64,000 bases of DNA from Lysinibacillus sp. OF-1 (GTDB lineage Bacteria; Bacillota; Bacilli; Bacillales_A; Planococcaceae), in NCBI RefSeq assembly GCF_028356935.1, contig NZ_CP102798.1:496001-560000 (forward strand), read 5' to 3'. Below, one piece after another: positions 57,340 through 59,565 of this stretch. Within the stretch, counting starts at the first letter, position 1. Each line of letters starts with the position of its first letter. The position numbers were made by a program, and so were the translations under genes. The notes below the pieces were generated by a model, which saw nothing but the letters and a program-made list of their open reading frames with translations, did not search any database and had not been told where the DNA came from.

Positions 57340-58212
57340 ATGAGATTTGATGAAGCTTATTCAGGAAATGTTTTTATAAAAAGTCATCCTACCTATGAGG
57401 ATGCACAAGCCGTTATTTATGGCATGCCAATGGACTGGACAGTAAGTTACCGTCCAGGATCACGTTTCGGTCCACAGCGTATCCGTGAGGTATCGATCGG
57501 TCTTGAAGAGTATAGCCCATATCTAGATCGCGAGCTTGAGGAAGTAAAGTACTTTGATGCTGGTGATATTCCACTACCTTTCGGGAATGCACAGCGCTCA
57601 TTAGATGAAATCGAAAAATTTATTGAAACATTATTAGCGGATGGCAAGATTCCTGTCGGTATGGGTGGGGAGCATTTAGTGTCTTGGCCAGTTATGAAGG
57701 CTGTCTCTGCTAAATATGATGATCTTGCCATCATTCATTTTGATGCACATACCGATTTACGTGTGGAATATGAGGGAGAACCACTTTCTCACTCAACACC
57801 AATTCGTAAGATTGCGGAACATATTGGACCGAAAAATGTTTATTCTTTCGGCATTCGTTCAGGCATGAAAGAAGAATTTGAATGGGCAAAGGAAAACGGC
57901 ATGCACATTTCAAAATTTGAAGTGCTTGAGCCGTTAAAAGAGGTTTTACCAACATTAGCTGGGCGCAATGTGTATGTAACGATTGATATTGACGTTTTAG
58001 ATCCAGCACACGCTCCAGGCACTGGTACAGTAGATTGTGGAGGTATTACATCAAAAGAATTACTAGCTTCCATCCACGCGATAGCAGCTAGTGGTGTAAA
58101 TGTTGTAGGCTTTGATCTAGTAGAAGTCGCACCTATCTATGATTCATCAGAAATGACGGCAAACACAGCTTCTAAATTATTACGAGAAATGATTTTAGGC
58201 TGGGTAAAATAA
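57340..58212 (+). CDS. speB: Agmatinase
   Basis: A 290-residue ureohydrolase that splits agmatine to putrescine and urea. Manganese ligands are in GGEHLVSWP (His), HFDAHTDLR (Asp/His/Asp) and the VTIDIDVLDPAHAPGTGTV segment (Asp pair). The C-terminal half keeps GFDLVEVAPIYD. AGGGC-type Shine-Dalgarno sequence (ACGGAGGGCAAGCA) precedes the ATG. Unlike the Bacillus order, spermidine synthase does not precede it in this window. Confidence 0.95.
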   Translation: MRFDEAYSGNVFIKSHPTYEDAQAVIYGMPMDWTVSYRPGSRFGPQRIREVSIGLEEYSPYLDRELEEVKYFDAGDIPLPFGNAQRSLDEIEKFIETLLADGKIPVGMGGEHLVSWPVMKAVSAKYDDLAIIHFDAHTDLRVEYEGEPLSHSTPIRKIAEHIGPKNVYSFGIRSGMKEEFEWAKENGMHISKFEVLEPLKEVLPTLAGRNVYVTIDIDVLDPAHAPGTGTVDCGGITSKELLASIHAIAASGVNVVGFDLVEVAPIYDSSEMTANTASKLLREMILGWVK

Positions 58213-58268: not shown

Positions 58269-58459
58269 TGTATTTTCTATTGAAATGAAGAATAGCTATA
58301 CGTCATAAATTTGAAACTTATTTTACGTAGTTGCGTAGATAAGTTAAGTAATAGTTTCTATTTTATAGAAGAGAGAAAAATTGATGAAACAACTGTCATC
58401 TATTGGTCAGTAGAATGTATGGTTCTTTAATTTAATTAGTGATAGGAAGGAGGAGTATT

Positions 58460-58735
58460 ATGATTTGGTCACTTCTCATCAATGATTTATTCATTATTGT
58501 CAGTACAATGGAATACTTTTGGCTATTAGCTTCTTTGGTTTTAACTGTGCTAAGTGTTCATTTGCATCTGTATCTGGTCAATAAAATAACGGTTCAAGAA
58601 GTAAAGGACGAAGCGTTTGAAGTTGACTATAATATCACGAATACTTGGACTCCACCTATGCTAACGTGGTTTGTTCTATGTATTAGGACGTCGGAAAACA
58701 GTGAGGAAGAAAGTGTATCTCCTAGTTTCATGTAA
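58460..58735 (+). CDS. Small membrane leader protein, candidate MifM-like stalling monitor of YidC
   Basis: A 91-residue protein with one clear hydrophobic helix (about 18-40, FWLLASLVLTVLSVHLHLYL) and a C-terminal tail that ends TWFVLCIRTSENSEEESVSPSFM in substance: W70, R76, N80 and an acidic cluster E82-E84 close to the stop. GGAAGGAGG with a 6-nt spacer fixes ATG 58460. It ends 24 bp before the yidC paralogue, and its last four codons form one arm of a hairpin that hides the yidC ribosome-binding site. From memory, B. subtilis MifM (95 residues) has a similar size, an N-terminal membrane segment, and an acidic arrest region after conserved W, R and N residues. Homology is not established; the call is based on architecture. 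Confidence 0.7.
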   Translation: MIWSLLINDLFIIVSTMEYFWLLASLVLTVLSVHLHLYLVNKITVQEVKDEAFEVDYNITNTWTPPMLTWFVLCIRTSENSEEESVSPSFM

Positions 58736-58751
58736 ACTTTTAAACTAGGAG
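58719..58751 (+). promoter_or_regulatory. Translation-control hairpin masking the yidC ribosome-binding site
   Basis: The left arm CTCCTAGTTT (58719-58728) pairs perfectly with AAACTAGGAG (58742-58751). The right arm contains most of the AGGAGG ribosome-binding site (58747-58752) of the yidC paralogue. The left arm is codons 87-90 of the upstream ORF and the loop holds its TAA stop. There is no U-run, so it is not a terminator. A ribosome paused near the end of the upstream ORF would open it. Confidence 0.85.
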
Positions 58752-58759
58752 GAATATCA

Positions 58760-59392
58760 TTGTTAACCTTTTTAGCACAACCGATTATTTACTTCATTCA
58801 TTTCATCCATTCATTTACAGGTAGCTATGCAGTGAGTGTCATTGGCATTACGATTGCAGTAAGATTAATTCTAATGCCGCTATTTATTCAATCTGCAAAA
58901 CATCAAAAGCGCTCGAAAGAACTAATGTCAGCCATTAAGCCTGAACTAGATGCGCTTACCACTAAATATAAGAACAGTCAAAATGAATCTGAAAAAATAA
59001 TAGTACAACAAAAAATGCAAGCATTAACGTCAGATTCATTGAAAAGTTCTTTATTAGGCTGTTTACCTATTATTGTTCAATTGCCTGTATTATTTTCACT
59101 GTATTACGCGATTAAGTTAGATACCATCATCGCAAGTGAAAATTTCCTATGGATGAATTTAGGTACGATAGATATTGGCATTTCGATTATTGCTTGTTTG
59201 ATTTATTTGATGCAAAGTGTTTTCTCCTTAGAGAAAAGCCAACCATTTAATATGAAGATTATGGTGTTCATTAATCCAATCATGATCCTCATTTTTAGTT
59301 TGTTCAATCCAGCGATTATCCCTATCTATTGGACAGTTAGTGCTATATTATTAATAGTTCAACAATTAATCATTAAAAAATGGTATAGATAA
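58760..59392 (+). CDS. Short YidC/Oxa1-family membrane protein insertase
   Basis: A 210-residue protein with the five-helix YidC core: VIGITIAVRLILMPLFIQSA contains the conserved groove arginine, followed by the cytoplasmic hairpin (HQKRSKELMSAIKPELDALT), LLGCLPIIVQLPVLFSLYYAI and three C-terminal helices. Typical Bacillus SpoIIIJ and YqjG are about 255-280 residues with an N-terminal lipoprotein signal; this one starts directly at the first core helix. The start is TTG 58760, 7 nt after AGGAGG. It is probably the inducible second insertase, controlled by the leader ORF and hairpin just upstream. Confidence 0.88.
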   Translation: MLTFLAQPIIYFIHFIHSFTGSYAVSVIGITIAVRLILMPLFIQSAKHQKRSKELMSAIKPELDALTTKYKNSQNESEKIIVQQKMQALTSDSLKSSLLGCLPIIVQLPVLFSLYYAIKLDTIIASENFLWMNLGTIDIGISIIACLIYLMQSVFSLEKSQPFNMKIMVFINPIMILIFSLFNPAIIPIYWTVSAILLIVQQLIIKKWYR

Positions 59393-59410: not shown

Positions 59411-59452
59411 AAACTTCTCTCTTTCGATTATGTAAAGAGAGGAGCTTTTATT
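59411..59452 (+). terminator. Intrinsic terminator after yidC
   Basis: The arms CTTCTCTCTTT and AAAGAGAGGAG pair with one mismatch and are followed by CTTTTATTT. Confidence 0.78.
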
Positions 59453-59565
59453 TATTCTCCATCTATATTTGTGAGATGCTTTACATGACTTCTATCTTGA
59501 AAAAACAGGAGTATTCATCCTATAATAAAAAGGTTATAGTAAAAGACTAAAAGGGAGCGTCCATT

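Follow-up and report, generated by a model that had tools for sequence, protein, structure and literature searches.

A candidate MifM-like leader upstream of a third, accessory YidC in Lysinibacillus sp. OF-1

The leader ORF, the third YidC and the RNA structure between them

The window analysed here is a stretch of 64,000 nucleotides, positions 496001-560000 of the 4.71-Mb single-contig genome of Lysinibacillus sp. OF-1. On its plus strand a leader ORF of 91 codons followed by TAA (58460..58735, ATG at 58460, TAA at 58733-58735) is separated by 24 bp from a yidC gene with a TTG start codon at 58760, exactly as a preliminary description of this DNA had placed them. The leader is preceded by a ribosome-binding region recognized from the sequence (aggaaggaggag, 58444..58455, plus strand), which exhibits only small changes among the close relatives termed here type A (10 of the 32 genomes of the genus, including that of the window itself and one of the same species). 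Upstream lies an ORF of 290 aa (57340-58212), which we take to be speB-like, and a scan of the plus strand between this ORF and the leader revealed no promoter-like site. The yidC gene is followed by an ORF of 143 aa and then by one of 556 aa, presumably argS-like. At 59417-59456, after yidC, an inverted repeat (CTCTCTTT/AAAGAGAG, 59417-59424 with 59434-59441, 9-nt loop) precedes a T-rich stretch; it is terminator-like, though beyond the loop limit of our scan.

The protein encoded downstream of the leader (58760..59392, plus strand) comprises 210 aa and lacks a lipoprotein signal. It matches the Pfam family PF02096 (60KD_IMP) over the full length of the profile (positions 1-163 of 163, E-value 6.1e-31, 108 bits against a cut-off of 35) and the solved YidC 3wo6 (E-value 1.9e-25), and its assignment is also supported by the tree described below. 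An N-terminal lipoprotein signal is present in both other YidCs of this genome, whose open frames measure 259 and 264 aa; the window protein is the third YidC and an accessory one.

Among Lysinibacillus records, one from Lysinibacillus fusiformis shares 99% identity with the leader and six others share 76-92%; a PDB search with the leader returned a single chance match (E-value 2). Its best 19-residue hydrophobic stretch according to a Kyte-Doolittle window and charge count, residues 22-40 (58523..58579, plus strand, hydropathy 2.05), is a likely transmembrane segment, with acidic residues on its N-terminal side and K42 on its C-terminal side, a charge bias that, together with the hydropathy, may point to the N-out/C-in topology of the MifM membrane-insertion signal. 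From residue 40 to E84 there are about 44 residues, compared to a median of 54 for the MifM type in the part of the published survey that served as our source (PMC10987492), with the qualification that a window at residues 10-28 is nearly as hydrophobic and the true end of the membrane segment is thus unsure. The arrest-like region comprises codons 62-84 (TWTPPMLTWFVLCIRTSENSEEE, 58643..58711, plus strand) and contains W70, R76, N80 and E82-E84, all of which had been pointed out previously; a relative only 26% identical retains W63, P65, P66, L68, W70, V72, C74, I75, E83 and E84.

Direct reading of the sequence bears out the perfect 10-bp hairpin proposed earlier, whose stem contains the AGGAGG and whose loop contains the stop codon of the leader. 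Its 5' arm (CTCCTAGTTT, 58719..58728, plus strand) pairs with the 3' arm (AAACTAGGAG, 58742..58751, plus strand), as supported by sequence, folding and the type A alignment, and the stem is extended by one U-G pair (58718 with 58752). The whole yidC Shine-Dalgarno (58747..58752, plus strand) is buried, with a computed probability of being unpaired of 0.02. The folding energy of 58710-58762 is -14.1 kcal/mol (z = -3.96, reached by 1/200 shuffles); longer context weakens the signal to z = -2.36 for 58690-58775 (7/200 shuffles) and -1.54 for 58640-58780 (16/200), and in a helix search none of 100 dinucleotide shuffles gave a hairpin as good as the observed one. We also considered an intrinsic terminator or attenuator at this position and rejected it, as no T-run follows the stem and the scan reported none there.

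Outside the hairpin we found an outer helix, absent from the preliminary description, in which the codons of the acidic region (58697..58703, plus strand) pair with the yidC start-codon region (58758..58764, plus strand, containing the TTG at 58760-58762), so that in silico the start codon is hidden in addition to the Shine-Dalgarno. Its seven pairs are all present in each of the 10 type A rows (nine of them distinct), where the only changes are of the G-U type; the pairs that would lengthen the helix are broken in up to five of the nine. Within type A, covariation in the outer helix is limited to G-U changes and a single double change, located in an end pair; the main helix, being invariant in all ten rows, is uninformative. 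Re-creation of the hairpin with other sequences in the relatives is stronger evidence than covariation in type A. In a survey of folds the Shine-Dalgarno had a probability of being unpaired of at most 0.04 in all nine type A loci folded, while among the type B loci introduced below it was mostly hidden (less than 0.3 unpaired) in only one of seven, the wrong start having been chosen for one of these (B_L046). The leaderless control of this survey is weak because only 5 of its 17 loci could be measured, the other 12 lacking a Shine-Dalgarno by our pattern.

Analysis of substitutions among the 10 type A sequences reveals two layers of constraint. The dN/dS ratio is 0.17 over the whole ORF and 0.083 over codons 62-85: the leader peptide is real and under purifying selection, which is strongest in this region. 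In the stretch that makes up the hairpin arm (codons 86-91), dS falls to 0.190 (0.448 in the whole ORF) and dN does not (0.117 versus 0.076), hence RNA is the conserved layer there. Conservation of the tail and the hairpin in relatives had been named beforehand as a test on which the leader hypothesis could fail; both are well conserved, and the hypothesis stood.

Distribution of the leaders and phylogeny of their YidCs

Seven other Lysinibacillus genomes possess a different variant, termed here type B, in which a leader of 86 codons (tail KWLRKVIYSKSDNDEELVSLL in locus L045) precedes a YidC of 216 to 218 aa at another locus; the hairpin differs in sequence. In none of the 32 genomes of the genus were both types found, and 15 of the 32 have neither; these 15 likewise lack the spare short YidC. 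The type A site, inspected as the 1.5 kb upstream of the 143-aa gene in 20 of the 22 genomes without type A, contained no leader or YidC. Since the two types are never found together and the type A site lacks the module in the genomes inspected, they look like alternative accessory modules.

A profile built from types A, B and three leaders from sister genera matched 23 of 261 genomes of the family at an E-value of 0.05. By our count 20 of these matches are true (ten of type A, seven of type B, and one each in genomes G035, G284 and G172), and all 20 leaders precede a YidC. Matches in three other genomes (G164, G031, G087) were discarded, as they contain stop codons, and one genome (G061) has a second weak match. 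Inspection of sequences upstream of extra YidCs revealed a further variant, type C, in one other Planococcaceae genus, where four genomes carry it (loci L087-L090 in G229, G194, G234 and G202). It has 91 codons, the tail LRKTVCRLERPED.EGHHLSM and a hairpin of its own that keeps the register. A leader of an extra YidC was also found in G089 (L217, reverse-strand ORF at 1093-1386 of the locus, tail WVMRRQRRIAQQTDDEVPTNSYY). As the profile had missed both type C and the leader of G089, the resulting count of leadered genomes is a lower bound, at least 25 of 261. Sixteen ordinary YidC2 loci fetched from the family, as well as the window genome's own YidC2, showed no leader-like ORF; five of the 16 have mechanically called ORFs of 41-85 aa within 200 nt upstream, judged by eye to be without a hydrophobic segment and acidic tail. 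Separately, three genomes (G012, G185 and G160; loci L052, L219 and L221) contain an extra SpoIIIJ-like YidC of about 252-257 aa with no evident leader, L219 and L221 being similar in their upstream DNA.

Among upstream ORFs across the class we read 27 loci and 40 chosen loci, a subset of the matches. One family carries the published MifM motif with DDED replacing DEED (RITTWIRKVIRMNSPVNDDED, L145), while many other leaders follow the pattern W...[IV]R.K..acidic. A family that, from its inferred name, is Staphylococcaceae-like exhibits WR[IV]KCL...SDE (L161 and L179), close to the sequence in G284 (WRVKCIYTGQDNEE). In this family three loci (L161, L179 and L160) have a leadered YidC whose leader is near those of the Lysinibacillus sister genera, and two of the three possess uninterrupted hairpins of 15-16 bp, G-U pair included. 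In six other loci, which come from several families (L166, L152, L153, L156, L157 and L158), the leader ORF overlaps the yidC start by 25-122 bases, with the stop inside yidC and the distance from the arrest motif to the hairpin kept.

A tree of YidC proteins was calculated from 78 rows, 10 of the original 88, mostly near-copies, having been left out before building. It contains one clade of 18 rows (SH-aLRT 94) that unites the YidCs of types A and B, of the sister genera and of the Staphylococcaceae-like leaders, and every sampled member of this clade is leadered. Fifteen rows of leaderless Planococcaceae YidC2 form a separate clade (SH-aLRT 93), and the type C YidCs group with this leaderless side of the tree, outside the 18-row clade. 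The branches on which types A and B come together are long, and the program flags a possible false join.

Relation to MifM and to other arrest leaders

MifM of Bacillus subtilis, located upstream of yidC2 (yqjG), resembles the window leader in being an ORF of about 90-95 codons placed ahead of a secondary YidC, with an N-terminal hydrophobic segment, a Trp followed by an acidic cluster near the C-terminus, and a stem-loop over the yidC Shine-Dalgarno, as far as described in the parts of PMC6037786 and PMC7897499 used here. The window ORF is likewise directly upstream of and co-oriented with its secondary yidC, and in silico the stem-loop covers the Shine-Dalgarno. Of the MifM arrest motif, RIxxWIxxxxxMNxxxxDEED in the consulted part of PMC7897499, the leader has the Trp, hydrophobic residues at -3 and +1, and the acidic run, the latter at W+12 to W+14, i.e. 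one residue nearer the Trp than the W+13 to W+16 of MifM; R69, M80, N81 and the four-residue DEED with its spacing have no counterpart in the 91 aa, and for this reason we do not file the leader as MifM in the strict sense. Its acidic window (charge -0.6 in 5-residue windows starting at residues 79-82) falls within the published filter for MifM, a local net charge below -0.3 in a 5-residue window within residues 70-100 (PMC10987492, in part), by which survey 572 MifM-type sequences were collected from 592 Firmicutes genomes. Unlike MifM, the window leader possesses the extra positions WxPPxLxW and CI, precedes a third YidC in a genome whose ordinary YidC2 is leaderless, and is accompanied by a second helix that covers the start codon. 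New relative to MifM are its variant code, the double lock and a third YidC as target.

Profile comparisons suggest a distant relationship. When the 32 Lysinibacillus genomes were searched with a profile of 21 MifM-type leaders taken from other families, no leader of type A or B was retrieved, even at an E-value of 10. In a test on about 1,200 ORFs, four of nine type A leaders (best E-value 5e-4), the window's own not among them, scored above the best unrelated ORF (4.7e-3) with a 16-row MifM-type profile. These misses and mixed ranks in sequence comparison count against close membership. The profile of the three sister-genus leaders matches type A at 7e-13 to 2.4e-9 and the Staphylococcaceae-like leaders at 2.7e-9, 6e-6 and 4e-3; the six type B leaders listed follow at 5e-3 to 3e-2 and are outranked by an unrelated ORF (1.1e-3). 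When type A was pooled with the sister genera, profile-profile comparison gave hhalign probabilities of 85.6% (core set) and 94.7% (all) against the MifM type and 90.7% against the Staphylococcaceae-like set, each score being reached by 0 of 200 column shuffles, while type A alone against the Bacillus MifM set gave 0.2%. Given the strong pooled match together with the latter value and the genome-wide miss, we call the leader a remote relative with a diverged arrest sequence. Curated models do not help here: the window leader has no NCBIfam or Pfam match up to an E-value of 1, and six relatives, two of them with the MifM motif (DDED for DEED), have no NCBIfam match and, in Pfam, three sub-threshold matches over two of the six. 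Both collections thus seem to contain no MifM model, and the miss is uninformative.

Two other known leaders invite comparison. CliM (uC_KYxIW), found in Clostridia upstream of one of the three yidC genes of C. kluyveri, is alike as a YidC-monitoring arrest leader with an RNA structure that represses yidC2 (PMC13183943), and differs in its bacterial class and in its KYxIW motif, which is absent from the 91-aa leader (motif from PMC10987492); the same account contrasts CliM with MifM's need for acidic residues and names only MifM and CliM as experimentally shown to monitor YidC (PMC13183943). ApcA of Actinobacteria also is an arrest ORF upstream of a secondary yidC (PMC7897499) and differs in its RAPG-type motif (PMC10987492); no RAPP, RAGP or RAPG-like C-terminal motif of the ApcA, ApdA and SecM-like type is present in the window leader. 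Among the literature matches listed, none joined MifM with Lysinibacillus, and none on MifM/yidC arrest peptides or uORFs dealt with Lysinibacillus or Planococcaceae; what connects Lysinibacillus with YidC in the portion of PMC6971209 at hand is the use of YidC as a taxonomic signature.

Register of the hairpin and proposed function

Measured from the Trp codon in 22 representative leaders that have one, the start of the hairpin's 5' arm falls at W+45 to W+62 nt (mean 53.5, SD 4.4), whereas measured from the stop it falls at -8 to -168 nt (SD 46), the end of the stop ranging from W+57 to W+219. After shuffling of the bases from W+24 to the Shine-Dalgarno, the mean SD of the starts was 15.6 and the minimum in 100 rounds 10.6; individually, 16 of the 22 hairpins were matched by no more than 5 of 100 shuffles and six by more. 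A helix was obtained for 39 of 40 leaders, at W+45 to W+64, where the case at W+64 (M14_L148) may be a wrong helix. The leader of G089, found after the 22-leader computation, fits at W+59, and M17_L166 at W+53 under a widened Shine-Dalgarno pattern. The hairpins of type C are 53-54 nt from the aligned Leu in four of four, two leaders have theirs 49 nt from an aligned Phe, seven more of the leaders outside the set fall at 53-58, and M38_L151 and S9_L160 are without a usable site; beyond the 22, the residue used as anchor (Leu, Phe or Trp) was picked by inspection. With the hairpin in register with the Trp and the stop anywhere, the design favours stalling in elongation rather than coupling at termination; were the ribosome to stop with the acidic cluster at its centre, it would extend just inside the 5' arm.

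We consider it probable that the ORF encodes a YidC-monitoring, MifM-like arrest leader, a strongly diverged relative of MifM, whose most likely role would be that of a sensor of YidC capacity switching on a spare insertase. The N-terminal transmembrane segment would be a substrate of YidC insertases. With sufficient insertion capacity, insertion would pull the nascent chain, the leader would be completed, the hairpin would re-form and the third YidC would stay off. If capacity is short, the ribosome would stall once about codons 82-86 occupy its peptidyl-transferase centre; its front would then cover the 5' arms of the hairpin and of the outer helix, and the AGGAGG and the TTG start would be freed, allowing the spare YidC to be made. 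The idea of a MifM-like stalling leader, already put forward in the preliminary description, thereby gains support from the conservation of tail and hairpin, the profile-profile comparison, the intermediates and the YidC tree, the stalling itself being predicted.

Other explanations can be weighed against the same data. The stop codon in the loop and the gap of 24 bp are alone enough to allow ordinary translational coupling without arrest, in which ribosomes at the stop would open the hairpin and the leader would be a mere carrier ORF; we regard this as improbable, because the hairpin keeps its distance from the Trp and not from the stop, and because a carrier ORF has no need of the strong protein-level selection on codons 62-85. 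Such selection would fit any small protein, including a membrane protein with its own function next to a separate RNA switch (e.g. a temperature-sensed one), yet the strict association of profile-found leaders with YidC, the absence of the spare short YidC from the leaderless genomes of the genus, and a motif-hairpin register unexpected for unrelated parts make this highly improbable. A MifM-like arrest peptide of independent origin, with convergent resemblance, appears to us unlikely, though it deserves more weight: the whole-genome search with the MifM-type profile missed the leader, type A alone hardly matches the Bacillus MifM set, and repeated origin is favoured for RAPP-type arrest peptides in the part of PMC10987492 that we used. 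Against it stand the pooled profile-profile match unequalled in the shuffles, the position of the downstream YidCs among YidC2-type proteins, including those controlled by MifM, and the shared register. Of the earlier suggestion that the leader is no close copy of MifM, and either diverged or independently evolved, the first part holds, and divergence fits the profile-profile comparison, the sister-genus intermediates and the YidC tree; independent origin keeps its share of probability because of the genome-wide miss.

More tentatively, and with some doubt on our part, these leaders may constitute a separate class of insertase monitors, associated with the accessory YidCs of Planococcaceae and the Staphylococcaceae-like family. 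Such a class might be characterized by a different arrest code (W-x2-[KL]-[CV]-[IL], acids at about W+8 to W+14, without R69/M80/N81), by the double lock in the type found in the window, by the A and B modules, and by a register rule extending across the Bacilli, according to which the Shine-Dalgarno hairpin would begin about 54 nt after the Trp wherever the stop is, so that the stall site might be predicted.

The strongly diverged MifM relative preferred here offers a natural test of which MifM residues matter, since it retains the Trp, a hydrophobic frame and acids but lacks R69, M80 and N81. Across many families, motif and hairpin are separated by a nearly constant distance, which provides a simple and checkable rule for finding such leaders and for predicting the stall site. 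For Lysinibacillus, these findings suggest membrane-insertion capacity as the signal that may deploy a third, optional insertase.
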